Below, piece by piece: positions 949 to 17,001 of a stretch of 20,803 nt of DNA. The stretch lies in the IMG/VR virus record IMGVR_UViG_3300025687_000421, positions 1-20,803 of that record; one strand, 5' to 3'. This DNA is from a virus. The first letter of the stretch is position 1. Every line of letters starts with the position of its first letter. The position numbers were made by a program, and so were the translations under genes. The notes under the pieces were generated by a model, which was not told the DNA's origin, made no database searches, and worked only from the letters and a program-made list of their open reading frames with translations.

Positions 949-1710
949 CTATCTAAATGGTTTTCCATTTACCCACAATACTAAAGAATATCTAGTCCCC
1001 TTAGTTACAGGTGTAACTTGATGAAATTGAAAAGAAGGAAATACTACTAAAGATCCTTGATCTTTTATTTCTTCACAAGTATGAAATCTATTTGGAGCGT
1101 GAGGACCGTAATCAAATTTTAAATATCCTCCCTCATAAGAATTGGCAGGACTTAGATTAACAGTAATGCTTATTTTTCTCACTTTACCTACTAAATCATA
1201 ATTAGTAGTAAATTTATATTTTTTATTTTCATAATCTTCTTTAGGTGTTATTCCTGGAATGTATCTTCTATAAGCTCCGTAATAATCTGAATCACCATCT
1301 GAATGCCAACCATAAAAACCGCCTTTTTCATATACAGTAAATTGTGCTGGTTCAAAAGTATCATAATCCCAATTCCAAGTTGTTCTTTCATTAGCTATGT
1401 CTAAAAAATGTTTTAATTTTCTAAAAATCCATTCTTCACTTAACCAACCTACTTTACTATCTCTAACATAATATTTTTCTTCTTTATAATCTTTATCGGC
1501 TTTCTTAATTTCTTCGGTTGTGACATCTAATTTAGGTCCTTTAAATTCTTTATCAGCACCTTTGTATATACCACCGTGTACAGTACCATAAGGACTTCCA
1601 CCTTTAGCTACTCTATTATTAATGTCTTCTTTTCCAAGTCTAATAATTTCATTACACTCATCAGGTGTAAAAGCACTTTTAAAATAATAAAATGTATCGT
1701 ATAATTGCAT
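949..1710 (-). CDS. 2OG-Fe(II) dioxygenase, prolyl-hydroxylase/PKHD type (253 aa)
   Basis: Full dioxygenase signature: H136-x-D138 (YGWHSDGDSD), distal H230 (FPSFQFHQV) and the 2OG-binding R240 (VTKGTRYSLVLWV). The strand YEGGYLKFD (about 192-200) is typical of the prolyl 4-hydroxylase alpha-subunit/PKHD-type family. The C-terminus is clearly paralogous to the next gene upstream (1724-2284): both have PSF-x2-H-x-V-x-PVTKG-x-R and end in a G-x-PF-R/K motif, which suggests an old tandem duplication. The reaction would couple oxidative decarboxylation of 2-oxoglutarate to hydroxylation of an unknown substrate, probably in the cytoplasm. No Shine-Dalgarno precedes the ATG. Instead an exact late box TATAAATA ends 5 nt before it, so the mRNA may start at the AUG. 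Confidence 0.85.
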   Translation of the reverse strand: MQLYDTFYYFKSAFTPDECNEIIRLGKEDINNRVAKGGSPYGTVHGGIYKGADKEFKGPKLDVTTEEIKKADKDYKEEKYYVRDSKVGWLSEEWIFRKLKHFLDIANERTTWNWDYDTFEPAQFTVYEKGGFYGWHSDGDSDYYGAYRRYIPGITPKEDYENKKYKFTTNYDLVGKVRKISITVNLSPANSYEGGYLKFDYGPHAPNRFHTCEEIKDQGSLVVFPSFQFHQVTPVTKGTRYSLVLWVNGKPFR

Positions 1711-1715
1711 AGTCT

Positions 1716-1723
1716 TATTTATA
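1716..1723 (-). promoter_or_regulatory. T4-type late promoter box TATAAATA, 5 nt before ATG
   Basis: Exact minus-strand TATAAATA directly abutting the TAA stop of the gene at 1724-2284 and followed by AGACT then the ATG at 1710. In T4 the late box spans about -13 to -6, which would place +1 on the A of the ATG. Confidence 0.7.
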
Positions 1724-2284
1724 TTACTTAAATGGATCTCCTACAGCCCATCCAACTAATACCTTTCTTATTCCTTTAGTAACAGGTTTGACTCTATGCC
1801 ATACAAATGACGGAAAACTAATTATAGTACCCATACTAAATTGTTTGTTAAATTTATAATATAAATGTTTTTCAGGTTTAGGATTTGGATAAGATAACTC
1901 AAATTCACCACCCTCATAATCTTCATTCAAACATATGGTAAAACTTATTTTTCTAATTGTATTGTCTTTATAAGGTTGTTTATGGCTATCTATATGCCAA
2001 TCATAATGATTACCTACCTCGTAAATAGTATATTGTAGAGGTTCAAATTTTTGTAATTGAAAATTCCATTTACTTCTTTGATTGTGTGTTTGAATAACTT
2101 TACTTATTTCTTTTGAAATTTTTGGAGAATTTAACCATTTAATTTTAGAGTTTCTATTTTTTACATTACCATCTTGTATCGTGCCTTCTTGTATTTTTAC
2201 TTGTCCTGCTATATCTTCAACTTGTTTACAAAAGTCTTTATCAAAGTAACCGATACTTAAACAATGATTATATTCCAAATACAT
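1724..2284 (-). CDS. 2OG-Fe(II) dioxygenase, prolyl-hydroxylase/PKHD type (186 aa)
   Basis: The iron ligands are H97-x-D99 (YDWHIDSH) and H163 (FPSFVWHRV), with 2OG-binding R173 (VTKGIRKVLVGW); the strand DYEGGEFEL (122-130) matches the prolyl-hydroxylase-like fold. It is a paralogue of the 253-aa gene downstream but shorter in the N-terminal half. An ATG 30 nt further upstream (2314) is open, but I chose 2284: it has AGGAG at a 7-nt spacing and forms a TAATG stop-start overlap with uvsY, a junction style used elsewhere in this window (7380, 17812). This start implies translational coupling to uvsY, so the enzyme may be made earlier than the purely late genes. Substrate unknown. Confidence 0.85.
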   Translation of the reverse strand: MYLEYNHCLSIGYFDKDFCKQVEDIAGQVKIQEGTIQDGNVKNRNSKIKWLNSPKISKEISKVIQTHNQRSKWNFQLQKFEPLQYTIYEVGNHYDWHIDSHKQPYKDNTIRKISFTICLNEDYEGGEFELSYPNPKPEKHLYYKFNKQFSMGTIISFPSFVWHRVKPVTKGIRKVLVGWAVGDPFK

Positions 2285-2712
2285 TAAATTGCTCCTGAAG
2301 TAAACCTTTTCCACTCAATAGCGTTTTTAATTGTAAATGTTCTATTTGATATTTGTCTAATTGTTCTATCTAAAAAATCAACAGTTGTATCTAAGTAATC
2401 AAGTTTTTGTTTTGATTTTATTAGTTCTTCGTCTGCCTCTAAGTATTTGTCAATATCTGTTTTTAATATTTTTAAATCAAATGGTTTTTCTGCATATACT
2501 TTAGGTTCAGCTTTGCCTGTATAATATTCCCATTTACTCCTTCTCAATGAATAATAATCTGTATTTGCCTTACTTAACATTAACTTAAACTTTGTTAAGT
2601 ATTTCATATACTTGTTATGTAATTGAGGTGTTTTAAGAGATTCTAAGTCTAACTCAGTATCGTTAATTTTTAAATCGTTATCTGCTTCGTTTTGTAATTG
2701 TTCTAAATCCAT
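2284..2712 (-). CDS. uvsY: UvsY-like recombination mediator (142 aa)
   Basis: Small, charged, mostly helical protein matching T4 UvsY (137 aa) in length and layout: MDLEQLQNEADNDLKI at the N-terminus, a central DYYSLRRSKWEYYTGKAEP (T4 has a comparable aromatic DYYSGRG stretch), and a C-terminal DFLDRTIRQISNRTFTIKNA resembling the T4 tail that ends in SRGFAIKHIQDMRAFE. UvsY loads the UvsX recombinase on single-stranded DNA coated by gp32, and so supports recombination-dependent replication and repair. Neither UvsX nor gp32 is in the window, but uvsW is just downstream, as in the T4 uvsW/uvsY cluster. A sigma70-like promoter lies in the 58-nt gap before it (see 2740-2768), suggesting expression before the late phase; the RBS is a modest AAGGTA. 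The stop overlaps the next start as TAATG. Confidence 0.88.
   Translation of the reverse strand: MDLEQLQNEADNDLKINDTELDLESLKTPQLHNKYMKYLTKFKLMLSKANTDYYSLRRSKWEYYTGKAEPKVYAEKPFDLKILKTDIDKYLEADEELIKSKQKLDYLDTTVDFLDRTIRQISNRTFTIKNAIEWKRFTSGAI
2292..2296 (-). promoter_or_regulatory. Shine-Dalgarno deciding the start at 2284
   Basis: Minus-strand AGGAG located 7 nt before the ATG at 2284, inside the end of uvsY. It favours this internal Met over the in-frame ATG at 2314, which has no comparable site. Confidence 0.7.
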
Positions 2713-2739
2713 AATTTAATTTACCTTTTTATTCACTTC

Positions 2740-2768
2740 ATTATAACACAAAACCTGAAAAAAATCAA
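2740..2768 (-). promoter_or_regulatory. Sigma70-type promoter with extended -10 upstream of uvsY
   Basis: On the minus strand, TTGATT (2768-2763), a 17-nt spacer, then a perfect TATAAT (2745-2740) preceded by TGT, an extended -10 of the TGn form. It fills the gap directly after the stop of the tail-tube-like gene at 2771 and lies 28 nt before the uvsY ATG. Every other clear promoter here is of the late TATAAATA type, so this one probably drives early or middle expression of uvsY and the genes behind it by host RNA polymerase. No MotA-like box was identified. Confidence 0.65.
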
Positions 2769-2770
2769 GC

Positions 2771-3394
2771 TTATGTGTGAGTTACTGTTGTTGTAGATGA
2801 TCCTACATTTGCAAATTTATATATTTGATATTTAAATACACAATTTACTGTTAAGTAATTTACGTCTGTGGCCTGTTGATTATACTGTAAAGGTCCAATA
2901 GATATAGGAAATAAATCTGAAAATCTTATTTCCACAACTGGATTGTTCTTACTAGTTAATATCATTAAGGTAGCATCGGAGAGAGTGGATCCTGCGTTAG
3001 GAGCGCCATATTTTACTTTTCCTATCTCTCTACTCACACTACCTGAAGATGTTGGGAATCTATCTGTATTTGCATTTGACAAAGCTGCGTATTCTGTGTG
3101 ATCTGTTGGAAATCCTAATCCTGTTAACCAGTTATGTAATTCCTGATAGTTTTCTAAGTTTTCATCTACAAGAAAAGTAACATCTAAATCCTGATATGTT
3201 AGTTTTTCACCAGGAACAGGTATGTCTTTTAATGGTGTTCTTTGTTCTTGGAAATTTAATGAAATGCCAGGTACATTAATAGCTGTGCAAAAGTATTCTA
3301 CTTTTGGTAGTTTGATTATATTAAATTTAAACTGTGTAGGACTAGCATAGTCTATTTTTGTAGGCTGTCTTGTATATGAATTTGTTACTGTCAT
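2771..3394 (-). CDS. Tail-tube-fold virion protein (gp19/gp54-like, 207 aa)
   Basis: Probable tail protein. The first 100 residues follow the layout of gp19 in this same phage (10189-10716): PTQFKFNI then PKVEYFCTAINVPGISL, a charged loop, PVPGEKLTYQDLDVTFLVD, and a helix LENYQELHNWLTGLGFP. gp19 has ANQFKVTM, DLAFLCRSTQIPAMTI, IKIAGDRTFADWSITVYND and FRLRNAFERWQNGI at corresponding places. The C-terminal strands also match, FKYQIYKFA here against FKYQYFETN in gp19. In T4 the tube fold is shared by gp19 and the tube initiator gp54 (about 320 aa); this protein is much shorter than gp54, and a tail-completion role (gp3-like) is also possible. A late-like box CATAAATA ends 5 nt before the ATG, with no Shine-Dalgarno. 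Confidence 0.65.
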   Translation of the reverse strand: MTVTNSYTRQPTKIDYASPTQFKFNIIKLPKVEYFCTAINVPGISLNFQEQRTPLKDIPVPGEKLTYQDLDVTFLVDENLENYQELHNWLTGLGFPTDHTEYAALSNANTDRFPTSSGSVSREIGKVKYGAPNAGSTLSDATLMILTSKNNPVVEIRFSDLFPISIGPLQYNQQATDVNYLTVNCVFKYQIYKFANVGSSTTTVTHT

Positions 3395-3399
3395 AATAC

Positions 3400-3407
3400 T
3401 ATTTATG
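3400..3407 (-). promoter_or_regulatory. Late-promoter-like box CATAAATA, 5 nt before ATG
   Basis: One mismatch from TATAAATA. It lies 1 nt after the TAA of the 78-aa gene and is followed by GTATT and the ATG at 3394. The spacing matches the boxes at 1716, 3651 and 16460. Confidence 0.5.
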
Positions 3408-3408
3408 C

Positions 3409-3645
3409 TTATTGTGGTAGTGTTTTTGACTCACCAAGTTTGATTATACCCTCTATAACCGTGTTAATATTACCATTTTCTTCTAGTTTTTCAATACAAG
3501 GTTTCTCTTGTGTAGTCTTTTGATCTTTCTCACATAATGCTTGTTCAGGTTTATCCTTTTCACAAGCATTTACCCAAGTAAAAGCTATTAACATTAGTAA
3601 CACTATTAAGAATATGTAAAGGTATTGTATGAGTATTTTTTTCAT
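3409..3645 (-). CDS. Small exported or membrane-anchored cysteine-containing protein (78 aa)
   Basis: I do not recognise a family. The N-terminus is a clear signal or membrane segment: MKK, then about 20 hydrophobic residues (ILIQYLYIFLIVLLMLIAF), ending TWVNAC at Cys28. VNA|C suits signal peptidase I; it is only a weak lipobox because Asn is at -2. The rest is charged with two more cysteines (38 and 50) and a possible helix NTVIEGIIKLGES. It stands just after the gp23 terminator and just before a tail gene. Possible roles are an inner-membrane or periplasmic accessory, such as a spanin-like or superinfection-exclusion protein, but none is shown. The start has no Shine-Dalgarno; a TAAATA motif ends 5 nt upstream. 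Confidence 0.65.
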   Translation of the reverse strand: MKKILIQYLYIFLIVLLMLIAFTWVNACEKDKPEQALCEKDQKTTQEKPCIEKLEENGNINTVIEGIIKLGESKTLPQ

Positions 3646-3650
3646 ATTAT

Positions 3651-3658
3651 TATTTAGG
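3651..3658 (-). promoter_or_regulatory. Degenerate late-promoter-like box CCTAAATA, 5 nt before ATG
   Basis: Two mismatches from TATAAATA, at its first two positions. It lies immediately after the T-run of the gp23 terminator and is followed by ATAAT and the ATG at 3645. The position, right after a terminator and at the repeated 5-nt spacing, argues for function more than the match does. Confidence 0.35.
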
Positions 3659-3660
3659 CC

Positions 3661-3691
3661 AAAAAAAAGGGCGGGTTTTTATGCCCGCCCT
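3661..3691 (-). terminator. Strong intrinsic terminator after gp23
   Basis: On the minus strand, an 8-bp perfect stem AGGGCGGG / CCCGCCCT with an 8-nt loop, followed by a run of T residues. It begins 33 nt after the gp23 stop. The stem is GC-rich in a very AT-rich region. It should end the head-gene transcript and separate it from the genes below. Confidence 0.93.
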
Positions 3692-3723
3692 CTTAATATT
3701 GTTCAAGTGAACAAACTTAATTA

Positions 3724-5067: not shown

Positions 5068-5086
5068 TTGTTTTTATCTCCCTTTA

Positions 5087-6229: not shown

Positions 6230-6252
6230 TGAGAATACTCCTTTTTATATTA

Positions 6253-6266
6253 TTAATTCGAATTAA
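6253..6266. repeat. 14-bp perfect palindrome in the gp22 leader
   Basis: TTAATTCGAATTAA reads the same on both strands. It lies between the late box at 6286-6293 and the gp22 RBS. It could be a protein-binding site or a weak RNA hairpin; chance is plausible in AT-rich DNA. Confidence 0.4.
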
Positions 6267-6285
6267 AAATATCTCTTTTACTAGA

Positions 6286-6293
6286 TATTTATA
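6286..6293 (-). promoter_or_regulatory. Late promoter TATAAATA for gp22-gp23
   Basis: Exact minus-strand TATAAATA in the 81-nt gap between gp21 and gp22, 56 nt before the gp22 ATG. No late box precedes gp23 itself, so this is the nearest promoter for the scaffold-capsid pair that ends at the 3661-3691 terminator. Confidence 0.8.
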
Positions 6294-6310
6294 ATTTCTT
6301 TACCTTTTAA

Positions 6311-6955: not shown

Positions 6956-6977
6956 CTTTTCTCTCTCTTGCTCCCTA

Positions 6978-6985
6978 TATTTATA
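6978..6985 (-). promoter_or_regulatory. Late promoter TATAAATA for gp21
   Basis: Exact minus-strand TATAAATA, 2 nt after the stop codon of the 130-aa gene and 22 nt before the gp21 ATG. Confidence 0.78.
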
Positions 6986-6987
6986 AT

Positions 6988-7380: not shown

Positions 7381-7742
7381 TAGTTATATCCCGATTCTTT
7401 ATGTGCCTCTATTACTAAATTATATTTGGCAACATTAGAGTCACTATCTAATAAAATGTTACCAATAACATCTTTAATTTTTTCTTCACCTGGTTTTAAA
7501 CCATAGTTACCACGTCCTGACAATACAACTTTAGTAGTATTATCATTTTCAAAATAAACTGTTACTTCTCCTGTACCTATAATTTCATAAGCAATATTAG
7601 CTATTGAAACTTTAGGTTCACTTGAAGCATTATTTGAATTGACAACATCAACCAATAATTCACCTACTTCTTCACCTACTCCATTTGAGTTAACAATAAT
7701 ATGAAAATTATTATCAACAACTTTAGTAGTTGTTATTGTCAT
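7380..7742 (-). CDS. Small beta-rich virion-type protein, paralogue 2 of a tandem triplet (120 aa)
   Basis: The shared core is VSIANIAYEI (45-54), VTVYFEND (60-67), KVVLSGRGNYGL (71-82) and a C-terminal GNILLDSDSNVAKYNLVIEA (94-113), each matched in order by its neighbours. It is more acidic than the other two. It begins MTITTTKVV, close to MAITTKILS of the gene upstream, which supports duplication. Only 7 nt separate it from the upstream gene and no good Shine-Dalgarno is visible, so it may depend on translational coupling; its own stop overlaps the next start as TAATG. Function unknown; head decoration or internal head protein is the leading idea. Confidence 0.75.
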   Translation of the reverse strand: MTITTTKVVDNNFHIIVNSNGVGEEVGELLVDVVNSNNASSEPKVSIANIAYEIIGTGEVTVYFENDNTTKVVLSGRGNYGLKPGEEKIKDVIGNILLDSDSNVAKYNLVIEAHKESGYN

Positions 7743-7749
7743 AAATTAA

Positions 7750-8124
7750 TTAATCGTTTTCACCCATTCCGATTTTTTGCAATGTTAACAATGCGTAACC
7801 AGTAGCAGATACAGTTACACCTTCAATATCACCGCCTGTAGCAGTTGTATTAGTAGCTGTATTTTTAATTACAGCACCGTAATATATTCCTGCACCTGAC
7901 AAGTTAATTGCGTCAACATCTGCTGATGCACCTTTGAATTGTAATTGTAATCTACCACTTAAACCGTAGTTGATATGAGTAATATGTAATTTAGCGCCGT
8001 TAGCGTGTCCACTCAAACCACTTGCGTCAACAGCCGTAGCTGTAGTAGCAGTGTCATTATCAAAAGTGAGCAATACTTTGGCGTGTGTTTTTGTATCAGA
8101 TAAAATCTTTGTTGTTATAGCCAT
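7750..8124 (-). CDS. Small beta-rich virion-type protein, paralogue 1 of a tandem triplet (124 aa)
   Basis: First of the three similar genes in transcription order. Core motifs are LHITHINYGL (46-55), LQLQFKGA (59-66), DAINLSGAGIYYG (71-83) and a final strand ATGYALLTLQKIG (107-119). It has a good RBS (TAGGAG, 9-10 nt before the ATG), unlike its two partners, so it may be the entry point for ribosomes on this mini-operon. Extra Ala/Thr/Gly content gives loops typical of virion beta proteins. No catalytic motif, signal peptide or membrane segment is seen. Confidence 0.75.
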   Translation of the reverse strand: MAITTKILSDTKTHAKVLLTFDNDTATTATAVDASGLSGHANGAKLHITHINYGLSGRLQLQFKGASADVDAINLSGAGIYYGAVIKNTATNTTATGGDIEGVTVSATGYALLTLQKIGMGEND

Positions 8125-8131
8125 AGTTTCT

Positions 8132-8377
8132 TTACACTCCTAATTGTTCTTTTGTTTCTTTATCAAAGTAATCTTCGATTTCCTTTTTGTTTACATTATG
8201 AAATTCGGCAATTTTTTCTATCGCATTTTCAAAATTGAAAATTAAATTGCCATCATTCTTAACTAATTTAAGAACGTCATTTATTGCCTCTTTCATAATA
8301 GGCGATAAATTATTAAAACTTTCTGTATCTAATAAATAATTTTCTTTTATTAGATTACTGACCTTGTTCAACGTCAC
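8132..8377 (-). CDS. Small prohead-region protein with probable GTG start (81 aa, gp68-like position)
   Basis: The frame is open to an ATG at 8458, but that part lies inside the prohead core gene and encodes Gln/Leu-rich shadow sequence. Convincing protein starts near NLIKENYLLDTESFNNLSP and continues with MKEAINDVLKLVKNDGN and a helical C-terminus ending KEQLGV. I place the start at GTG 8377, with AGAGG 6 nt upstream and a 23-nt overlap with the preceding gene. TTG at 8371 and ATG at 8296 (54 aa) are alternatives, the latter without an RBS. T4 has gene 68 at this location, but no sequence similarity to it is clear to me. A helical, charged composition fits a prohead core component. Confidence 0.55.
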   Translation of the reverse strand: MTLNKVSNLIKENYLLDTESFNNLSPIMKEAINDVLKLVKNDGNLIFNFENAIEKIAEFHNVNKKEIEDYFDKETKEQLGV

Positions 8378-8639
8378 CTGCAACCTCTGGTTCTGGTGTA
8401 GCTGCTGGTTCAGCACTTTGTTGCATATCAGCAGGTACAGTTTCAGGCGAAGGATCAATTACTTCTGGTTTTGGGTCAGAAAAAGAGGCCGCTTGAAATA
8501 AATTAGAAGCCATATCTTGTCTTTTAACTTCTAAAGCGTCGCCTACTTTTGCTCTTAAAGCATCCTTAAATGCTTCACCAGCTTCAGCATTAGCGCCTGT
8601 TGATAATTTATCTATAAAATTTTTTACTTCTTCACTCAT
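8355..8639 (-). CDS. Prohead core protein, gp67-like position (94 aa)
   Basis: Small acidic protein directly after the portal gene, where T4 has the prohead core gene 67. The N-terminal half is helical (MSEEVKNFIDKLSTGANAEA then FKDALRAKVGDALEVKRQDM), a pattern I associate with short prohead core proteins of marine T4-like phages. The C-terminal half is Pro/Glu/Ala-rich and probably disordered, ending DVEQGQ. It would join gp22 inside the prohead and probably be processed by gp21. It has a strong RBS AGGAG and an exact late box only 10 nt before the ATG. Confidence 0.72.
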   Translation of the reverse strand: MSEEVKNFIDKLSTGANAEAGEAFKDALRAKVGDALEVKRQDMASNLFQAASFSDPKPEVIDPSPETVPADMQQSAEPAATPEPEVAGDVEQGQ

Positions 8640-8649
8640 TTTATCTCCT

Positions 8650-8657
8650 TATTTATA
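8650..8657 (-). promoter_or_regulatory. Late promoter TATAAATA fused to the RBS of the prohead core gene
   Basis: Exact minus-strand TATAAATA that contains the TAA stop of the portal gene and is followed at once by AGGAGATAAA and the ATG at 8639. With T4 spacing, transcription would start within or just after the Shine-Dalgarno. Confidence 0.7.
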
Positions 8658-10152
8658 ACGTTTCATTGGAATTTGTTGGGGCTGCAATAATTCCATCGTC
8701 AATTTCTTTCTTAATTTGTTTATCAATATCTTCCATTTCTCTTTCGTCTTGTTTAAGTATATTCTTTCTTACATACTTAACAGAATAGTATTTACCAACA
8801 TAATCTCTCATTTCATTAGCTAATGCTAATCTTTCTCTCATCATTTCTGTGTTTTTTAACTCAGCAAAATGACCATCTTTTAAGAAATCATATTGAATAT
8901 GAGCTGCGATTGTACCCCAATCTTCTTCAGCAATCACTCCTTTTAATACTAATTGTGTTCTTAAAATATCATTAAATAGTTCAGTAAATTTTCTTCTTAA
9001 TCTTTGAACAAATTTAGTAAATTTTAATTCATCTCTAGTAATTTCAGCTGCTCTTCCTAAATTAAATCCTGAAGAGGCTTCCATTCTACTTACAGGCACA
9101 TTTAAACTTCTATAAAGTTTCTTTTGGAAGTATTCAATGTCAGTGATCTCACCTAAGTTTTGACCACCAGGTAAAGTTGTTATTTCAGTTCCTCTACCAC
9201 CTTCTCTACGAGGTAACCAGTAATCTTCTAACATATTCATATAATTACGGTCATCTCTTATTTCACCTGTAGCTGCGTCATAGACAAGTTTGTTTCTATA
9301 TCTTGCCATAACATCTCTTAAATATTGTTCAGCTTTTCCTTTTGGTAAATTACCTACATCAATATAAAAAATTCTTCTTTCTGGTGCTCTAGCAATTCTA
9401 TAAATTACCACAGCGTCTTCAATCATTCTTAACTGATTGACAGGTTTAATTGCCTTATGTAAGTAAGACAACACCATATTTTTATTTTGGTCAATTAGAC
9501 CAGAGTTTGTATATGCAATAGTATCAGAAGCAATTTTAATACCTTGACCTGCTGTTGCATTTGCTACACCTCTTTCATTGTAAACATAATATTCATTAAA
9601 TTCGTTTATTATATCTAACGATCCTTGAGTTCTGTTTTTTCTAACTTCTCTAACTTTTTTTACTTTTCTAGGATCCAGATATTTTAATTCTAACAATCCT
9701 GTTCTAGGATTTTCTCTATCAATAATTTTTTGATAATACATACGACCATCAACATACCATCTTCTAAAGATGTCGTGGCCTTTTGTGTTGAATTGCATTA
9801 ACCTTAATATATAACTAAACTCGTCTTCTATTTTTCTTCTCACTTCATTGCCGAAAGGTAAGTTGTTCAAAACACATCTTACAGGTTCCTTATCACCCTC
9901 AACTACAATAGCTTCATTAACTATATCATCTATAGCTGTGTCGCACTCGGGGTGTAAAGATATTTCTCTATATCTCCTAATAAGATCGGCTTCGTTCTTT
10001 GCTGTACCTTCAATGTCCAAATATTGACCGAAGTAACCGCCTGTAGCGGCGACGGTTGTTGCACCGTCATCCGCTACTGGAATACTAAAGTTTTGTTTTG
10101 GATCATCTTTAGGCTTTACTCTTGTTATTTGAAAACCAAATAATTCTGCCAT
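8653..10152 (-). CDS. 20: gp20 portal vertex protein (499 aa)
   Basis: Dodecameric portal through which DNA enters and leaves the head, and the nucleator of prohead assembly on the inner membrane in T4. Recognisable blocks include LIRRYREISLHPECDTAIDD near residue 65, KYLDPRKVKKVREVRKNRT, RMIEDAVVIYRIARAPERRI, DRNYMNMLEDYWLPRREGGR followed by GTEITTLPGGQNLGEI, and FQKKLYRSLNVPVSRM. Length is near T4 gp20 (524 aa). The N-terminal MAELFGFQITRVKPKDDPKQ is typical of the short variable leader in marine relatives. It has a clean RBS AAGGAGA. Order gp19-gp20-core-gp21 is as in T4. Confidence 0.95.
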   Translation of the reverse strand: MAELFGFQITRVKPKDDPKQNFSIPVADDGATTVAATGGYFGQYLDIEGTAKNEADLIRRYREISLHPECDTAIDDIVNEAIVVEGDKEPVRCVLNNLPFGNEVRRKIEDEFSYILRLMQFNTKGHDIFRRWYVDGRMYYQKIIDRENPRTGLLELKYLDPRKVKKVREVRKNRTQGSLDIINEFNEYYVYNERGVANATAGQGIKIASDTIAYTNSGLIDQNKNMVLSYLHKAIKPVNQLRMIEDAVVIYRIARAPERRIFYIDVGNLPKGKAEQYLRDVMARYRNKLVYDAATGEIRDDRNYMNMLEDYWLPRREGGRGTEITTLPGGQNLGEITDIEYFQKKLYRSLNVPVSRMEASSGFNLGRAAEITRDELKFTKFVQRLRRKFTELFNDILRTQLVLKGVIAEEDWGTIAAHIQYDFLKDGHFAELKNTEMMRERLALANEMRDYVGKYYSVKYVRKNILKQDEREMEDIDKQIKKEIDDGIIAAPTNSNETL

Positions 10153-10188
10153 AAAATAATCTCCTTATACTAATACTTATCCTTGTGG

Positions 10189-10716: not shown

Positions 10717-10738
10717 TTTTTATTCTCCTTTTCTAATC

Positions 10739-12661
10739 TTAGCTAGCTACTTCTTCAAAAGAAACGCCAGTTCTGGTTGCTACAAATGATAATGTGATAA
10801 AGTTGATACTTCTTGCTGGTTTCACAAAGATTTCAGCAATAAATTCATTTCTATCAATTACATCACCTGTATTGTTAGTTTCATCACACACTACTAAGAA
10901 GTCTGTGATACCTCTTCGCCCTTGTACTTCTCTTAGGAAAGGCTCAACTATATTTCTAAAGTTTGCTCGAGTAAACTCATCATTAAACTCAAACAATTGG
11001 AATTTAGAAGCAGTTGAGATTGCCTTCTCTAAAGTAATAAACAATCTTCTTACGTTGATTCTATCAAAAGCTGATGGAGCACTTAATCCAGTTTTATCAC
11101 CGAATAGTACAGTACCTTGTCCTGGGAAAGTTACCACAGGATTGATTCTGTTTCTATAAAGATCATCTCTTTGTGTTTTATTTGGATTGTATGCTAACTT
11201 AACTGCGCCTCTAACATTTCCTCTGTTAAGGCCAGCTGGTGAATACCAACTATCTGCGATTAAGTCTGTTCTAGCAGCTAAGCCTGCCATATCACCATTT
11301 AACGGTACATATCTATACACATCACTATATCTGTCGTACATATATTTGTATCCACTATCGAATACAACATATGAAGATGAAGATATGCTTGAATAGAAAC
11401 TAATAATATTATTAGTTTGTGTGTTAGCACTTGTAACGTTTACAACGTCTGATCTCTCTGGAGATACAAACGCTATAGCGTCTTTTCTATTTTCTGCAAT
11501 TGTGATAAGATTATCAATATGTGTTGCGTCACAAGCTCCTGCTACGATTAAACCAATGTCAACAGTTTGACTGTCTTCAAATTTTTCATAAGCAGTTTTC
11601 TTTTGACCTGTAGTTACAGTCGAACCATTAGAACCATTTGATAATGATTCATCTGTCGGTGTAGTTACAGCAGTAAAAGTTATACCAGCAGCCGCACTAC
11701 CCCAGTTTGTACCACTTGAGTTGTGATCCATCCAGAAAACGTATTGTGATTTTCCAAACAATACATCAGCGTAGTAGTTAGTATCTCCTTGTGGAGATTT
11801 TGCGTCTGAAGCTTTAGAAGCTTTTTCAAAAACTTCTAAAACAGTATTTGGTGTACCTGAAATAACTCCGTCTTCGTCAATAACGATTACGTGTATTTCA
11901 TCATTAGCACCACTTCTTGCTGAAACGTAAGGTGAAGTTCCTGGAGCACCTGATACTAAATCATAATATCTCCATCTTCTTTTTACGTTAGCGCCATCTG
12001 TTAATGCAACGTGTAATCCGCCTGAACCTGTATCGGCTCTAACGAAAGTAATAGCAGGTGAAGACACAGTAGTTACTCTATATTTGTAACCATCATAGTC
12101 TGTACCTGCAGCTGTTGTAGAAAATTCTACAATGTCGCCCACGTTAATACCAGTTGTACTTGTTAAAGTTATAGTAGTATCGCCTACTGCTGTGCTTGAA
12201 TCGTTAACTGTTGTTTTTGCAGCTTCTTCATAAGCAGTTGCACTAGGACAAGTTGCTACTTTTAGAGAATTACCCCAAGCACCTGCTGTTTTAGCAGCAA
12301 ATGTTCCTACAGCCGCTTGGCCAGTAGAGTAATTATCCGTATAATCTTCATTGTTTTTAATTTGTATTGCACTACCGCTTGAAGTTGCGTTAGTCAATCC
12401 AGTGTTAGTTGCTCGTACTACCCTTAAAGCGTTAGAGTATTGTAGGAAGTTTGCAGCTGAAAACCAGTCTTCAAAGTTTGTTGAATTTGGTTTTCCAAAC
12501 GTTTCTACTAATTCTTGTTCGCTTGAAACCGTTACGATTTCATCTAAAGGTCCTTTTTCAAATTGTCCTGCAAATGCACCAACACTTGTTGATACAGCTG
12601 GAATAACTCTAGTAAGGTCTCTTTCTTGTACGAGAACGCCTGGTGATACTTGAAATGCCAT
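10739..12661 (-). CDS. 18: gp18 contractile tail sheath protein (640 aa)
   Basis: Contractile sheath protein, similar in size to T4 gp18 (659 aa). The N-terminal block MAFQVSPGVLVQERDLTRVI, TSVGAFAGQFEKGPLDE and ELVETFGKP is typical of the family. The C-terminal third carries DRINVRRLFITLEKAISTAS, FEFNDEFTRANFRNIVEPFL and RRGITDFLVVCDETNN, and ends with FVKPARSINFITLSFVATRT, the conserved core that contacts the tube. Residues about 90-340 are Thr/Ser/Gly/Ala-rich and correspond to the variable outward domains. It has a strong RBS AAAAGGAGAA and a 97-nt leader after a late box, which also contains a tiny ORF and a hairpin (12678-12752). Confidence 0.95.
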   Translation of the reverse strand: MAFQVSPGVLVQERDLTRVIPAVSTSVGAFAGQFEKGPLDEIVTVSSEQELVETFGKPNSTNFEDWFSAANFLQYSNALRVVRATNTGLTNATSSGSAIQIKNNEDYTDNYSTGQAAVGTFAAKTAGAWGNSLKVATCPSATAYEEAAKTTVNDSSTAVGDTTITLTSTTGINVGDIVEFSTTAAGTDYDGYKYRVTTVSSPAITFVRADTGSGGLHVALTDGANVKRRWRYYDLVSGAPGTSPYVSARSGANDEIHVIVIDEDGVISGTPNTVLEVFEKASKASDAKSPQGDTNYYADVLFGKSQYVFWMDHNSSGTNWGSAAAGITFTAVTTPTDESLSNGSNGSTVTTGQKKTAYEKFEDSQTVDIGLIVAGACDATHIDNLITIAENRKDAIAFVSPERSDVVNVTSANTQTNNIISFYSSISSSSYVVFDSGYKYMYDRYSDVYRYVPLNGDMAGLAARTDLIADSWYSPAGLNRGNVRGAVKLAYNPNKTQRDDLYRNRINPVVTFPGQGTVLFGDKTGLSAPSAFDRINVRRLFITLEKAISTASKFQLFEFNDEFTRANFRNIVEPFLREVQGRRGITDFLVVCDETNNTGDVIDRNEFIAEIFVKPARSINFITLSFVATRTGVSFEEVAS

Positions 12662-12677
12662 TAGGATTCTCCTTTTA

Positions 12678-12752
12678 TTAATTAGCTAATTTTAACATAT
12701 ATTTTAAATCAAAAATCGTAAGTTTTCTTACGTCCATATTCAAACTTTTCAT
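12678..12752 (-). CDS. Possible 24-residue leader peptide upstream of gp18
   Basis: ATG-initiated ORF in the 111-nt gap between gp17 and gp18. It begins MKSLNMDVRKL, continues through a short amphipathic helix-like stretch and ends LKLAN with TAA. It ends 16 nt before the gp18 ATG, just before that gene's Shine-Dalgarno. The start lies 6 nt after an exact TATAAATA, with no Shine-Dalgarno, the same arrangement as several real genes here. A 6-bp hairpin lies within codons 7-12. It may be a real micro-protein, a regulatory leader peptide for gp18, or a chance ORF; conservation in relatives would decide. Confidence 0.4.
   Translation of the reverse strand: MKSLNMDVRKLTIFDLKYMLKLAN
12717..12732 (-). 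repeat. Perfect hairpin CGTAAG-AAAA-CTTACG in the gp18 leader
   Basis: A 6-bp perfect inverted repeat with a 4-nt loop, followed on the minus strand by ATTTTTG. It could be a weak terminator for read-through from gp17, an attenuator, or an mRNA-stabilising element. The stem is short and the T-run is broken, so termination would be inefficient. Confidence 0.5.
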
Positions 12753-12758
12753 TACTAC

Positions 12759-12766
12759 TATTTATA
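12759..12766 (-). promoter_or_regulatory. Late promoter TATAAATA for gp18-gp19-gp20
   Basis: Exact minus-strand TATAAATA 6 nt after the gp17 stop and 97 nt before the gp18 ATG. It is also 6 nt before the 24-codon ORF. It probably drives the sheath-tube-portal series. Confidence 0.8.
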
Positions 12767-12772
12767 AAATAC

Positions 12773-14410
12773 TTAACTTTCGCCTCTTCTAATAGTGACA
12801 GGAGACCATTTTGTACCATACTCATCTATAGTATCTTGTTCTTCTTCAGGCGTTCCATCGTCAATAAACCCAAAAGGCGCCATATCTTGCTCTATTAAAT
12901 TCTCTTGTTCCGCATATAGTTTTGAACGTACATCAACATTAGTTAATTCTTTAAAATATCTTTGATTTGATAACCAACCAAATACCACTAAACAAGTCAT
13001 TAAGTCATCATTACAGCCTTCTTCAGCTTTAAATGAATTGTGTACTCTGGTAAAAGTTGACATCTCCTCTACAATATTAAAATCATTAATTATCATCTTA
13101 TCGGATTCTATAATTGTTTTAATATTAGCACAACCTATTTTTTTAACTTGTTTGGTCATACGAACACCTATTTGACTACCTCTTCCACTAAAACCAGCAC
13201 CTAGTATTTGTCCTGCTCTTCCTTTTTGTACTGTCATCATCATATTATCATACTCTAATTCATAATGAAGACCGTCTGATATTTGAGCACCTAGGTCATT
13301 CACTTCAACCAATATATGTGCGTGATTAAAAGCATTACAAGCCTTTTGTATCATATGAGGAAATAGTAAAGGTTTTACATCACTACTTCTATACTTTGCT
13401 ACAACTCTATAAGGCAATTGTGTAACATCAAATATTATAAAAGCTGAGTAATCTTTTCCTATACCTCTTGCTACGTCAACTGTACAAACATAATGATGAC
13501 CTTTAACTGGTCTTTCAAATACATCTAAACCACCACTTGATTCAATAGCGTCTTTATAAGGTATCATTTTAATTTTAGCAGGTGATATAAGAGTATCTAC
13601 TGATCCTAAAAACTCACACTCAAACTCACTAGCAAATTGTTCTTTACTTGTATTTCTTATTGTAGCTTCTTTCCATTCTTCATCTCTACCTGGCACCTCA
13701 GACCAATGCACTTCTATAGGCAAATAATCATTTTTTTTATTAATTGCATCCATCCAAAGTTTGTAGTACATATTCATTCCGTGTGGTGTAGATACAATAA
13801 TCATTTTTGTTTTTTTACCTGATGATATTGTAGGATAAACTGAACTAAAAAATTGTTCTGCAATGGTGGCTGGTACGAAAGCAAACTCGTCAAGGAATAT
13901 TATGTTATAAGAACCTCCTCGAATTGCACTTGAAGATGTAGCAGCTGCAACCACTTTACTACCATTTTCTAATTCAATATTTCCTTTGTTCCAATTCAAA
14001 ACACCTTGTTGTAAAAATTTTGGTATATTTTCATATGCAAGTTGTAAACGACCTAATATATCTCTAGCAGTATTTGATTTATTGGCTAGTATGGCAATGT
14101 TTGAATTTGGATTAAATAAAGCATAATGTAATAAGTATGAAATAGTTGTTGTTGATTTACCTGATTGTCTAGGAAGTTTACAGATTGTAAATCTATTATC
14201 GTGTATTGTTTGTACTATTCTTTTTTGAAAATCATACATTTTAAATGGTACAAGACCCTCATCTAACGATACTATTCTCACATAGTTTTCCATAAAATAT
14301 AAAGGATCTTTAGCACACTTTTGATATTCTAAAATTTCTTCTTTAGTATATTCGTGCTTAACATTAACCTTTTTTAAATTAGGGTTACCTAAGTAAACTT
14401 CGTTATTCAT
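12773..14410 (-). CDS. 17: gp17 terminase large subunit, packaging ATPase-nuclease (545 aa)
   Basis: Motor that pumps DNA into the prohead and cuts the concatemer. ATPase domain: the Q-motif-like region FKMYDFQKRIV (56-66), Walker A PRQSGKST (80-87) with K85, Walker B NIIFLDEFAF (169-178) with D174 and catalytic E175, and coupling motif VSTPHG (206-211). Nuclease domain, RNase H-like: D312 in CTVDVARGIGKDYSAF, E369/D372 in LVEVNDLGAQ, and D468/D469 in EEGCNDDLMTC, matching the acidic triad of T4 gp17. It is shorter than T4 gp17 (610 aa) at the N-terminus. The start overlaps the end of the upstream dioxygenase gene by 8 nt, with RBS AGGAT. The partner gp16 is unusually separated from it by three accessory genes. 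Confidence 0.96.
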   Translation of the reverse strand: MNNEVYLGNPNLKKVNVKHEYTKEEILEYQKCAKDPLYFMENYVRIVSLDEGLVPFKMYDFQKRIVQTIHDNRFTICKLPRQSGKSTTTISYLLHYALFNPNSNIAILANKSNTARDILGRLQLAYENIPKFLQQGVLNWNKGNIELENGSKVVAAATSSSAIRGGSYNIIFLDEFAFVPATIAEQFFSSVYPTISSGKKTKMIIVSTPHGMNMYYKLWMDAINKKNDYLPIEVHWSEVPGRDEEWKEATIRNTSKEQFASEFECEFLGSVDTLISPAKIKMIPYKDAIESSGGLDVFERPVKGHHYVCTVDVARGIGKDYSAFIIFDVTQLPYRVVAKYRSSDVKPLLFPHMIQKACNAFNHAHILVEVNDLGAQISDGLHYELEYDNMMMTVQKGRAGQILGAGFSGRGSQIGVRMTKQVKKIGCANIKTIIESDKMIINDFNIVEEMSTFTRVHNSFKAEEGCNDDLMTCLVVFGWLSNQRYFKELTNVDVRSKLYAEQENLIEQDMAPFGFIDDGTPEEEQDTIDEYGTKWSPVTIRRGES

Positions 14411-14975: not shown

Positions 14976-15264
14976 TTAAAATTATCCCTTCTATGTGAGT
15001 ATATCCTAATTGTATAGCTGCTTGTATTCTTTGACTACCTTTATGCAAACTAAATTGTTTTTCTATATATGGTTGTCCATTTGCACCCATTCTATGAATA
15101 GGAGATATTTGATGTTTGTAAACTTCTACTGGAAAAATCATATCTTCACCGTCTAATAATTCTTTTAAAGGTTTCATTGATTTAATATAAGTTAAGTCAC
15201 TTATTTTAAATGTTTTAATTTTTTTACCTTTAAATTCTGATACATTACACTTTAGTATTTTCAT
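14968..15264 (-). CDS. ParB/sulfiredoxin-like domain protein (98 aa)
   Basis: Small protein resembling the ParB N-terminal (ParB/Srx) fold: FPVEVYKHQISPIHRMGANG (44-63), then LHKGSQRIQAAIQLGYTHIE (73-92), which matches the typical G-x-x-R-x-x-A-A-x-x-L-G-x-x-x-I pattern with G76 and R79. ParB family members bind CTP through this region, and some relatives are nucleases or kinases; which applies here is not known. It is too short to hold the helix-turn-helix and dimerisation domains of a chromosome-partition ParB. It overlaps genes on both sides (20 and 8 nt) and stands between two dioxygenases just before gp17. A role in packaging or in supporting the neighbouring oxygenases would be guesswork. 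Confidence 0.55.
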   Translation of the reverse strand: MKILKCNVSEFKGKKIKTFKISDLTYIKSMKPLKELLDGEDMIFPVEVYKHQISPIHRMGANGQPYIEKQFSLHKGSQRIQAAIQLGYTHIEGIILND

Positions 15265-16045
15265 AAAAATGTTTTATTCTTAACATAAGTGAATTATCAA
15301 AATCTTCTTTATCTCTAATTTTGGATAATGGTTTTTTATCTACTTTCAATCCTTGTACAAAAAATACAATGGTTAATCTATTATTATCACCTGTAATAAA
15401 GTTATTTGCTTTATGAAAATAACGACTATCATATATTATCATTCTATTATAGATATTTTTAACATTAATAGTTTCATAAAATTTATTATTAAAATTTTGT
15501 ATCGCATTTATATAATCAGTATCAGATATTTTTCCATCTCCATAAAATGCTTTTTTTTCTTCATATTGATTGAAAAAACTTATGTCTTTTTCAAATTCTG
15601 GTTTTATTCTAAATAGAGATGTTCCTGAATCAGGATCAGCATTAGGTGTTAAATAAATTACACCTGCAACATCACTACTTGTATCTATATGCACCCAACC
15701 CTCATTTTTAGGACTTTTTTTATCAGTATCAAATGGATCTATTACTGAATAAGTAACAGAACTATCTCTCCAAGAAAACTTTTCATATCTAAGATTAAAA
15801 TATGTAGATAAAGCTTTTAAAATTAATGTTGTAGAAAAATGACTATCTATTGTATGTAAAGGTGGAGACCTATAACCAGGAAATTGACCCTCTAAAGTTT
15901 TTTGCATAGGCAAATCATTTGCCCATTTTCTTATAATATCAGGTTCTGAAAAAAAGTTATCTATAACAGCTGGAAAAAATTCAGCACTTTCATTTATATT
16001 TTTTTCAGTTGGATTGTGTTCATAACTATTTTTCATCTTCATCAT
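15245..16045 (-). CDS. DUF6445-like 2OG-Fe(II) dioxygenase (266 aa)
   Basis: Layout resembles the DUF6445 family, proteins with a dioxygenase-like fold: FFPAVIDNFFSEPDIIRKWA near the start, FPGYRSPPLHTID (55-67), GWVHIDTSSDVAGVIYLTPN with H119-x-D121, SGTSLFRI, then NRMIIYDSRYFHKANNF with distal H211 and R223 in NNRLTIVFFV. All four expected active-site residues are present. The first ATG (16045) lies inside the gp16 gene and gives a 20-nt overlap; Met at 16042 and 16036 are also possible, and no clear RBS distinguishes them. The gene is somewhat more AT-rich and Asn/Lys/Ile-rich than the structural genes beside it, which fits later acquisition. Confidence 0.72.
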   Translation of the reverse strand: MMKMKNSYEHNPTEKNINESAEFFPAVIDNFFSEPDIIRKWANDLPMQKTLEGQFPGYRSPPLHTIDSHFSTTLILKALSTYFNLRYEKFSWRDSSVTYSVIDPFDTDKKSPKNEGWVHIDTSSDVAGVIYLTPNADPDSGTSLFRIKPEFEKDISFFNQYEEKKAFYGDGKISDTDYINAIQNFNNKFYETINVKNIYNRMIIYDSRYFHKANNFITGDNNRLTIVFFVQGLKVDKKPLSKIRDKEDFDNSLMLRIKHFYENTKV

Positions 16046-16454
16046 CTTTCTTATTCAACATTTTTTGTAATTCACTTGTAGAACCTACAAATAAAGCATT
16101 TTTAATATTTTGACTTGTACTTGATTTTCCAGGTAAAGATTTTAAATCTTTTAATTTTTTCTGTAAATCTTGTAATTTATCAATTGTACCCGCAACTTGA
16201 CCTATAAGTTGTCCAGCGACCTCATAAGCTCTAGGGTGTTGGCCTTCTTTTGCAATATCTAATATTCCATCAATTGCTTCTTGCCCTCTTTCAATAAGAT
16301 TATAATAGTTTTCTCTACTATATTCATAATCTTTATCTACATCAGGATTTTCTTTATCTTCTTTTCTAGGAACAGGTGGTGTAAACTCCTTTTTTTCTAC
16401 AGGAGGTGTATCACTTAATCCTAATATTTCATTTACTTTATCTTCTATACTCAT
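16026..16454 (-). CDS. 16: gp16 terminase small subunit (142 aa)
   Basis: Regulator of the packaging motor: it recognises DNA and stimulates the gp17 ATPase. Alignment by eye to T4 gp16 (164 aa) is good: [20 protein letters not shown] against T4 [35 protein letters not shown] against SPRHMEVFATLMGQM, and [18 protein letters not shown] against NIQNATVFMGSPTELM. The middle is a coiled coil (about 85-110) that should form the oligomer. The N-terminus is Pro/Glu/Lys-rich and probably flexible. There is no Shine-Dalgarno; GATAAATA, which contains the stop of the upstream gene, ends 5 nt before the ATG. Confidence 0.9.
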   Translation of the reverse strand: [142 protein letters not shown]

Positions 16455-16459
16455 AATGC

Positions 16460-16467
16460 TATTTATC
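16460..16467 (-). promoter_or_regulatory. Late-promoter-like box GATAAATA, 5 nt before the gp16 ATG
   Basis: One mismatch from TATAAATA; it includes the TAA stop of the upstream dioxygenase gene and is followed by GCATT and the ATG at 16454. Chance overlap of a stop codon with A/T-rich sequence is possible, but the 5-nt spacing repeats elsewhere. Confidence 0.5.
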
Positions 16468-16987
16468 TAAATGTATATACTGCTACCAATCTTCTACCTT
16501 TTTCGGGCAAATAAGCATAATGATCTTTATGACCAAAACATACACCTAAAAACTTTTTTGGTTGTGTTGTTTTAAAAATTGTTTTATCATCATTTAATAT
16601 TACTGTAGAACCACCTTCAAAATCATTTAAATATATTAATAATTGATTGTGTGGAAAATTATGATCTTTATGTATTTGACTTTTTTCTAAACCAATATTC
16701 ATTGTAAGGTTAACACTAATTCTTAAAATCTCTTTATATTCTATATTATGTTTTTTTGTAAAACAATTTAACATCTCAGAAAAAATTTCATATGCACTAG
16801 AATTTATACCATCATTATCATTTCTATCTTCAGGTCTAATTAATACGTTATGTACTAAAAAACCTAAATCATCATTTGTAACTGCTGAGGAGTTCCAATA
16901 AAAAGGAAATTTATCTGTTAGTATAACACTATCAATAAATCGTTTATGACCATCTTCTAAAAAATTATCATCTTCAATATACATCAT
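16463..16987 (-). CDS. 2OG-Fe(II) dioxygenase-like protein (174 aa)
   Basis: H106-x-D108 (QIHKDHNFPHNQLLIYLNDF) followed by EGGSTVILND is the first iron-binding half of the fold. PKKFLGVCFGHKDHYAYLPE supplies the distal His (H156, or H153) and GRRLVAVYTF supplies R165/R166 for 2-oxoglutarate. The N-terminal half (1-85) is variable and has no recognisable domain. It lies between gp15 and gp16, where T4 has no extra gene. Either Met1 (16987) or Met2 (16984) may be the start; there is no Shine-Dalgarno, and an exact TATAAATA ends 6 nt before Met1. Expression is therefore probably late, alongside packaging genes. Confidence 0.75.
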   Translation of the reverse strand: MMYIEDDNFLEDGHKRFIDSVILTDKFPFYWNSSAVTNDDLGFLVHNVLIRPEDRNDNDGINSSAYEIFSEMLNCFTKKHNIEYKEILRISVNLTMNIGLEKSQIHKDHNFPHNQLLIYLNDFEGGSTVILNDDKTIFKTTQPKKFLGVCFGHKDHYAYLPEKGRRLVAVYTFR

Positions 16988-16993
16988 ATAAAA

Positions 16994-17001
16994 TATTTAT
17001 A
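16994..17001 (-). promoter_or_regulatory. Late promoter TATAAATA, 6 nt before ATG
   Basis: Exact minus-strand TATAAATA in the 21-nt gap after gp15, followed by TTTTAT and a double ATG. With T4 geometry +1 would fall one base before the first AUG. Confidence 0.7.

Follow-up and report, generated by a model that had tools for sequence, protein, structure and literature searches.

Late transcription in phage T4 is directed by gp55-, gp33-, and gp45-dependent promoters whose box, TATAAATA, is reported to cover positions -13 to -6, and transcription is expected to begin 6 nt downstream of it (PMC1524935). The same box occurs in the pelagimyophage DNA described here, and a homolog of the late sigma factor (gp55) annotated in Pelagibacter phage Mosig was found in all eight phages searched, including the three cultured relatives Mosig, HTVC008M, and Melnitz. 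The difference from T4 lies in the distance between box and start codon: the shortest spacing in T4 is 12 nt and none of its 26 linked boxes ends exactly 5 nt before an ATG (N5), whereas 19 of the 75 linked boxes of the three cultured relatives do so. The marine cyanomyoviruses, which belong to the same family, Kyanoviridae, also share the box (given there as NATAAATA), but in four cyanophages 130 of 140 linked boxes lie at 15 to 60 nt, a Shine-Dalgarno sequence (SD) accompanies 27 of these 130, and N5 spacing is seen at 3 of the 140. Late promoters of phage Aeh1 are described as using a CTAAATA variant that begins at -12 (PMC1524935). This variant is used in pelagimyophages too, whereas the sole match to the N5 pattern in Aeh1 sits inside gp20.

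Leaderless mRNAs, of which that of lambda cI is the textbook case, provide a further comparison. The N5 genes resemble leaderless bacterial and phage mRNAs in their predicted start on the AUG and their lack of an SD; they differ in being a class of virion-structure genes that is tied to one phage-specific late promoter type and lies beside a leadered class. The literature matches listed, read as titles and the starts of abstracts and including few subscription papers, contained none that deals with leaderless late mRNAs of T4-like phages.

Late boxes in a pelagimyophage fragment

The window (the whole stretch of DNA analyzed, 20,803 nt, from IMG/VR record IMGVR_UViG_3300025687_000421) is a fragment of a T4-like pelagimyophage whose nearest cultured relative is Mosig. 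TATAAATA occurs seven times on its coding strand and not once on the other strand, and TATAAATA-like boxes on the coding strand precede tail, head, and packaging genes (Table 1). The original prediction, made from the letters of the window, named six boxes ending 5 or 6 nt before an ATG and proposed that the genes behind them give leaderless late mRNAs. All six boxes lie at the positions given for them, on the minus strand, and the observation is largely right: four (1716, 3400, 3651, and 16460) show the exact N5 spacing to the ATG of genes encoding 78 to 253 aa, the start assigned to the 12759 box is probably wrong, and the 16994 box has too few homologs to judge. The predicted leaderless class comprises gp16, the tail tube protein, the 78-aa ORF, and the oxygenase at 949 to 1710, that is, one oxygenase and not the two first proposed.

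The 3651 box has the N5 position claimed for it, but its sequence is CCTAAATA rather than NATAAATA; CTAAATA behaves like ATAAATA in relatives. The spacer behind the 1716 box is AGACT, with T at -1, and the 16460 box shares sequence with the stop codon of the gene upstream. No PHROG or Pfam match at E 0.001 was found for the 78-aa ORF. The 174-aa protein gave no Pfam match and is, from its HxD...R pattern, probably a 2OG-Fe(II) oxygenase.

Table 1. Coordinates of late boxes, associated genes, and hairpins in the window
Feature	Position	Strand	Details
2OG-Fe(II) oxygenase, 253 aa, predicted leaderless	949..1710	-	phrog_61 E 1.8e-23; PF13640 E 5.1e-13
Late box TATAAATA	1716..1723	-	N5 before ATG at 1710; predicted +1 = A of ATG
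Tail tube protein, predicted leaderless	2771..3394	-	phrog_45 E 1.2e-35
Late box CATAAATA	3400..3407	-	N5 before ATG at 3394
78-aa ORF, predicted leaderless late gene	3409..3645	-	relatives in 70 viral loci
Late box CCTAAATA, CTAAATA variant	3651..3658	-	N5 before ATG at 3645
Terminator-like hairpin and T-run after gp23	3661..3691	-	T-run ends 2 nt before the 3651..3658 box
Late box of gp22, TATAAATA	6286..6293	-	leadered, N56
Late box of gp21, TATAAATA	6978..6985	-	leadered, N22
Box TATAAATA of core gene 8355..8639	8650..8657	-	N10; AGGAG between box and predicted +1
gp18 tail sheath, SD AAGGAG	10739..12661	-	SD in 64/64 distinct upstreams
Hairpin CGTAAG-AAAA-CTTACG in gp18 leader	12717..12732	-	
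Late box of gp18, TATAAATA	12759..12766	-	predicted leader 92 nt
gp16 terminase small subunit, predicted leaderless	16026..16454	-	phrog_445 E 4.7e-49; PF11053 E 8.1e-9
Late box GATAAATA	16460..16467	-	N5 before ATG at 16454
174-aa protein	16463..16987	-	phrog_274 (label DNA endonuclease V) E 2.4e-24
Box TATAAATA	16994..17001	-	N6 before ATGATG at 16987
Late box of gp13, TATAAATA	19446..19453	-	leadered, N25
Late box of 19468..20118, GATAAATA	20137..20144	-	leadered, N18, SD AAGGAG

Spacing between late box and start codon

In the window, AGGA, GGAG, or GAGG was taken as an SD and boxes were linked to starts within 60 nt. Identical contexts were counted once, genes of fewer than 60 codons were not called, boxes that lay deeper than about 25 nt within another called gene were disregarded, and homolog matches with less than 45 nt of upstream sequence or falling short of the N terminus were skipped. 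Loci L168 and L333 (contig nearly identical to the window) were excluded from the metagenomic context, homolog-spacing, terminator, and gap counts and were retained in the homolog SD counts (gp18 64/64, gp13, gp21, tail tube, and gp16) and in the 16994 homolog count.

The N5 share of linked boxes in the three cultured relatives exceeds that of T4 and the cyanophages combined (3/166; Fisher p 2.7e-8) and is accompanied by a share of 33/143 in metagenomic loci anchored on gp17. Across 310 metagenomic loci with 382 distinct linked ATAAATA boxes, 131 boxes are at N5, 1 is at N4, and 6 are at N6; neither these counts nor those of the terminators given below are independent events, since 140 of the 163 metagenomic N5 genes come from the three gene families used as scan queries and many terminators follow gp23. 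The sharp short-spacing peak that the original prediction expected in related genomes is therefore present at N5 alone, and 5 to 6 nt as a single class was rejected. In the relatives, N5 spacing was found for 32 of the 89 CTAAATA boxes linked to a start and for none of the 16 GTAAATA or 36 TTAAATA boxes.

Twenty permutations of ATAAATA gave no start at 5 to 6 nt in the window, and permuted motifs gave at most two such starts in any genome; overlap between some permuted hexamers and the real box gives these hexamers peaks at other spacings. In HTVC008M and Mosig, 14 of the 15 N5 pattern matches inside annotated stretches end on an annotated start codon. Of 11 matches in RB49, KVP40, Aeh1, and T4, 7 were inspected; in no case does the match end at an annotated start codon. 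Neither GTG nor TTG was found as a start codon at N5 in ten sets, in which these codons rarely start a gene at any spacing.

Conservation of the spacing in individual genes

Retention of the spacing in homologs varies by gene. It is firm for the tail tube protein, where 80 of 85 distinct metagenomic upstreams have the box at N5, 5 lack a box, and none has another spacing. For gp16 it is partial (n = 91: N5 in 41, another spacing below 15 nt in 9, no box in 41, and none at 15 to 60 nt), as it is for the 78-aa ORF (n = 30: N5 in 14, N6 in 2, other spacings below 15 nt in 8, 15 to 60 nt in 1, and no box in 5), many of whose homologs have the box directly after a T-run. N5 spacing is not conserved for the oxygenase at 949 to 1710, whose viral scan yielded 8 loci: among 28 distinct metagenomic upstreams, 1 has N5, 1 another spacing below 15 nt, 10 a box at 15 to 60 nt, and 16 no box. 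The DNA end protector gp2 has N5 in Mosig, HTVC008M, and Melnitz (3/3). N5 is absent from homologs of gp13 (0/38), gp21 (0/47), and gp20 (0/24).

The 12759 box was rejected as a leaderless start, as the ATG 6 nt on opens a frame of a mere 24 aa and the distance to the ATG varies in relatives. The box was found in all 79 distinct metagenomic gp17-gp18 gaps, where the next ATG, 1 to 28 nt away (N6 in 16, N9 in 15, and N1 in 10), begins a frame of 1 to 26 codons. The leaderless call is most likely a miscall, and the box is most likely the conserved promoter of leadered gp18. In 10 of the 16 N6 gaps a window-like frame of 16 to 24 aa is opened, so a short leader peptide may exist in this subgroup and the rejection is less than a full refutation. 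For the 16994 box, just two distinct homologous upstreams with an ATG were found and neither contains a box; its start is putatively leaderless or preceded by a very short leader.

Shine-Dalgarno sequences and the leadered class

Genes with a more distant late box were stated in the original prediction to carry an SD. In the window this holds for three of five such boxes (gp22, the core gene at 8355 to 8639, and 19468 to 20118) and fails for gp21 and gp13; the SD of the core gene precedes the predicted +1, so that its late transcript would be without one. In the cultured phages, the SD falls inside the predicted transcript at 48 of 52 boxes at 15 to 60 nt, and the proposed split between leadered and leaderless genes is clear there and looser in metagenomic loci (62/91). 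Under a strict definition, 13 of 37 gp13 homologs and 9 of 47 gp21 homologs have an SD. An SD core was found upstream of 1 of 70 ATAAATA-N5 starts of the tail tube gene and 0 of 38 of gp16, an absence that is partly forced because the box occupies the SD site; SD absence was for this reason rejected as independent proof of leaderlessness. The original interpretation is supported, and leadered late genes coexist with predicted leaderless (box-N5-ATG) late genes in the same SAR11 phages, a group of T4-related phages from the ocean.

Sequence context of N5 starts

The -1 base is T at 97% of the 130 metagenomic starts of the ATAAATA-N5 type and at 94% of the 33 with another TAAATA box at N5; the corresponding shares are 31% among 616 SD genes and 46% among 727 other genes. 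In the cultured phages, 19 of 20 N5 starts have a pyrimidine at -1. The -1 base lies outside the predicted leaderless mRNA.

A terminator-like hairpin and T-run directly precede 39 of 163 metagenomic N5 boxes versus 5 of 1,063 SD genes. The window contains such an element after gp23, whose fold on the minus strand has -25.6 kcal/mol (z -4.6); the scan listed the hairpin (9 pairs, 7 of them G-C) on the plus strand only, and the minus-strand T-run was read from the sequence. Divergent N5 pairs are separated, ATG to ATG, by 26 bp in HTVC008M and 29 bp in metagenomic locus L027. These terminators and divergent pairs leave no room for a leader.

Model and alternatives

The sequences show an N5 spacing that is retained across several gene families, together with the T at -1, the terminators and divergent pairs without leader room, and the gp55 homolog in three cultured relatives; the position of +1 is carried over from T4, and we infer that gp55 reads the boxes and how the mRNAs are translated. 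In the proposed mechanism, an [AC]TAAATA late promoter would be fused to the start codon through a fixed 5-nt spacer with the consensus GTA(T/A)T. Host RNA polymerase carrying gp55, the late sigma factor of the phage, would read the box and begin RNA 6 nt past it, on the A of the ATG, a start that the T at -1 may help to fix. The late mRNA would then have AUG as its 5' end and no SD, and would have to use leaderless (5'-AUG) initiation. The remaining late genes would retain a leader, nearly always with an SD in the cultured phages. The probability that gp55-type late promoters begin RNA on the A of the AUG at N5 genes is put at roughly 0.85.

With the +1 position borrowed from the T4 rule, the boxes could be late promoters whose RNA starts 1 to 4 nt before the ATG, giving an ultrashort leader that would be functionally near leaderless; this is improbable. 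In the cultured phages, the sixth base past the leadered boxes (n = 45) is A in 73%, G in 11%, and C in 0%, which favors a start on the A of the ATG, as does the T at -1 of metagenomic N5 boxes; past 219 leadered metagenomic boxes, A at the sixth base (63%) is not set apart from its neighbors (62% and 60%). A Y-R step at leadered boxes is modestly best at +6 in the cultured phages (49% versus 42% at +3), and its frequency at +3, which exceeds that at +6 in the metagenomic loci (46% versus 33%), speaks for the shorter distance.

Transcription from far upstream could also serve the N5 genes, the box adding little and the lack of an SD reflecting the box sequence only. Many upstream genes are close and codirectional, and the boxless gp16 homologs fit such read-through, but hairpins right before N5 boxes and the divergent pairs argue against it for those genes and the tail tube gene keeps its exact spacing, which makes it very unlikely as the main route. 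We give still less weight to the view that the A/T run acts in translation initiation, for instance as an S1-binding enhancer, and not as a promoter. The run does occupy the position of a ribosome-binding site in A/T-rich genomes, but the same box lies 15 to 60 nt upstream of other late genes that have their own SD, may directly follow a terminator, and recurs in the 26- to 29-bp divergent gaps, and an enhancer would have no need of a spacing of exactly 5 nt. Chance proximity of box and ATG in an A/T-rich genome probably explains 12759, given its variable ATG position, and possibly 16994. For the N5 class it is contradicted, and as a general account is the least credible of all: permuted motifs, the reversed pattern, T4, and the cyanophages show no peak, and the motif as a chance feature was rejected.

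A possible role for bS21, and implications

A bolder extension of the leaderless reading would have two late translation channels, in which the phage-encoded ribosomal protein bS21 shifts host ribosomes towards 5'-AUG initiation on leaderless virion mRNAs; we regard it as improbable. bS21 is encoded by each of the three cultured phages that have a clear N5 class and was not found among ten further T4-like phages, of which one is represented by an incomplete single-cell record. Common ancestry could be enough to account for this match, and the strong SDs retained by gp23 and gp18 also count against the proposal. Escherichia coli ribosomes carrying HTVC008M bS21 are reported to have about 5% activity in a GFP translation test, which its authors attribute to a need for further factors or to incompatibility with the E. 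coli ribosome (PMC6375957).

A study of pelagimyophage genomes reports no success in predicting middle and late promoters (PMC7029224). The box together with the N5 rule provides candidate late promoters for SAR11 phages and supports their start codons. It also points to compression of regulatory DNA, through fusion of promoter and AUG with a T at -1, terminator-promoter-AUG cassettes in which as little as 14 nt separates the T-run from the AUG, and back-to-back promoters within 26 bp. The predicted leaderless mRNAs form a defined set in cultured phage-host pairs, in which leaderless translation in SAR11 would be directly testable.

The window and its late-promoter boxes

The window is a fragment of a T4-like myovirus (20,803 bases, 32% G+C) in which every called gene lies on the - strand. 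Its terminase shares 75.7% identity with that of Pelagibacter phage Mosig and 64.0% with that of HTVC008M, and its genes encode head, neck, and tail proteins together with several 2OG-Fe(II) oxygenases. The protein encoded at 16463-16987 contains an oxygenase-like HxD...R pattern yet carries the PHROG label of DNA endonuclease V, which is probably wrong. All six T4-type late boxes originally predicted to stand directly before start codons are present; four of them end exactly 5 nt before the ATG (N5) and one ends 6 nt before it (N6), whereas the sixth, at 12759 upstream of the tail sheath gene (gp18), is probably not a start-codon box.

Coordinates of late-promoter boxes, gp18 leader features, and bS21 genes
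Feature	Genome	Position	Strand	Description
Box	Window	1716	-	N5 before 2OG oxygenase gene (949-1710)
Box	Window	3400	-	N5 before tail tube gene
Box	Window	3651	-	CTAAATA variant, N5 before 78-aa ORF
Box	Window	16460	-	N5 before gp16
Box	Window	16994	-	N6 before ATGATG
24-aa frame	Window	12678-12752	-	MKSLNMDVRKLTIFDLKYMLKLAN; starts 6 nt past gp18 box
Small hairpin	Window	12717-12732	-	gp18 leader; compared in relatives
bS21 gene	Mosig	9983-10132		
bS21 gene	HTVC008M	91237-91392		
bS21 gene	Melnitz	34209-34367		

A fixed spacing between box and start codon

Of the 9 linked ATAAATA boxes in the window, 3 are at N5, and none of 20 permutations of the motif gave a start at N5-6 there. The cultured relatives Mosig (6/27), HTVC008M (8/17), and Melnitz (3/22) also place ATAAATA at N5, in contrast to T4 (0/26), Syn9 (0/15), S-PM2 (0/24), P-SSM2 (1/34), and AG-345-F15 (1/29). 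With [AC]TAAATA, the counts are 19/75 in the three relatives versus 3/166 in T4 plus four cyanophages (Fisher p = 2.7e-8). The 310 metagenomic loci (2.09 Mb) contain 382 distinct linked boxes of the ATAAATA type, of which 131 are at N5. This fraction is inflated because N5 genes served as queries for part of the loci; the gp17-anchored subset, not selected via N5 genes, gave 33/143. The peak expected at 5 to 6 nt is sharp at N5 but does not extend to N6 (6 boxes, with 1 at N4), and a broad mode follows from 15 nt up.

The 163 metagenomic N5 genes with an [AC] box fall into 15 families, with sizes of 78, 39, and 23 plus twelve small ones. The spacing was predicted to persist in homologues, and among distinct metagenomic upstreams it does so for the tail tube (exactly N5 in 80/85) and, in part, for gp16 (41/91) and the 78-aa ORF (14/30) but not for the oxygenase at 949-1710 (1/28). 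The gp16 upstreams lacking N5 have no box (41/91) or another spacing below 15 nt (9/91), and none has a box at 15 to 60 nt. No N5 box was found among distinct metagenomic upstreams of gp13, gp20, gp21, gp23, gp18, or the core gene.

In the cultured phages, the tail tube gene is at N5 in Mosig and HTVC008M, and the DNA end protector gene is at N5 in all three. HTVC008M also has head closure gp4 in this class, along with genes for a tail tube cap, a baseplate wedge protein, a 2OG oxygenase, and a tape-measure-like protein. Several more N5 genes belong to no named family. Where HTVC008M and Mosig are annotated, the N5 pattern has 15 hits, and 14 of these end on the annotated start codon. A csgF-annotated gene (HTVC008M 7562-8038) and a gene for a large phrog_35576 protein (11972-13807) each start at an N5 box, as does the phrog_35576 gene of Melnitz (start 53573; L114:13573-15624).

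Predicted transcription start on the A of the ATG

Late boxes of T4 are described as spanning -13 to -6 (PMC1524935); by analogy, N5 would put +1 on the A of the ATG. In the metagenomic loci, T occupies -1 in 97% of 130 ATAAATA-N5 starts and 94% of 33 other TAAATA-N5 starts, compared with 31% of 616 genes with a Shine-Dalgarno sequence (SD) and 46% of 727 others, and 19 of 20 N5 starts in cultured phages have a pyrimidine there. Such a preference is consistent with initiation at a pyrimidine-purine step, a well-established habit of bacterial RNA polymerase.

A terminator-like hairpin and T-run lie directly upstream of 39/163 N5 boxes (28 within 2 to 7 nt) versus 5/1063 SD genes, although the 39 cases are not independent events, because many come after gp23. 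The 3651 box of the window is likewise directly behind such a structure. Divergent genes provide a second tight arrangement: gp2 and gp4 of HTVC008M (18914-18945; locus L104) have 26 bp between their ATGs, and a pair in locus L027 (4450-4484) has 29 bp between start codons, each with an N5 box per strand. Judged from these layouts, neither the stretch behind a terminator nor a divergent gap leaves space for a normal-length leader. Behind leadered boxes, the sixth base is A in 73% of cultured-phage cases (n = 45); at 219 metagenomic leadered boxes it is not distinct from its neighbors, and +6 is not the best position for a pyrimidine-purine step, both of which count against the predicted start six bases past the box.

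Leadered genes and the gp18 leader

The proposed split between leadered genes with an SD and leaderless genes was assessed by scoring AGGA, GGAG, GAGG, or AAGG inside the predicted transcript for boxes 15 to 60 nt before the start. An SD is present in 48/52 cases in the three cultured phages and 21/23 in T4 but 62/91 in gp17-anchored loci; under a stricter rule it is frequently absent, being present in 9/47 gp21 and 13/37 gp13 homologues. Cultured relatives thus show a strong split, and the wider set a looser one. Unlike the cultured set, four cyanophage genomes rarely have an SD at leadered late genes (27/130). Geometry partly accounts for the lack of an SD at N5 starts. At window 8640-8657 (TATAAATAAGGAGATAAAATG), the late box is followed by an SD that precedes the predicted +1, and only readthrough RNA would therefore contain this SD.

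The gp18 box, proposed as a leaderless start, is retained as ATAAATA in all 79 distinct gp17-gp18 gaps from metagenomes. The distance to the following ATG varies from 1 to 28 nt, however (16 cases at N6, 15 at N9, and 10 at N1), and the frames that begin there have 1 to 26 codons; an SD precedes gp18 in 64/64 distinct upstreams. Frames of 16 to 24 aa similar to that of the window occur at N6 in 10 of the 79 gaps. A leader peptide is possible in the N6 subgroup, because these make up 10 of its 16 cases. The 24-aa frame overlaps the leader hairpin, and this overlap alone may cause the likeness. Many of the 78 distinct leaders compared carry the hairpin, about 25 to 33 nt past the box, with stems CGTAAG/CTTACG, CATAAG/CTTATG, TGTAAG/CTTACA, and CGTAT/ATACG. 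These variants suggest compensatory changes, and the hairpin may be an element of the sheath mRNA leader.

Relation to known systems and candidate factors

The T4-type late promoter and leaderless translation are each already known, and phage transcripts are described as often leaderless in one paper (PMC5312081). A pelagimyophage survey mentions unsuccessful prediction of late promoters (PMC7029224), and the paper on Melnitz gives a count of 15 late promoters in passages that leave aside how far these lie from start codons (PMC9004378). Among the matches listed, no title or abstract opening described a separate class of T4-type late promoters fused to the start codon at a fixed distance.

All 8 phages searched encode a homologue of the late sigma factor annotated in Mosig, and we infer that it reads these boxes. 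Ribosomal protein bS21 is encoded by all three phages in which the N5 class is clear, and a search of ten further T4-like phages did not find it. When the phage collection was searched by tblastn, 31 records matched, comprising the cultured trio, other Melnitz records, Kolga and Aegir (both SAR11 phages), Pseudomonas phages of about 285 kb, and a mixed remainder that is mostly unannotated. Speculatively, bS21 might aid leaderless initiation in phages with the N5 class.
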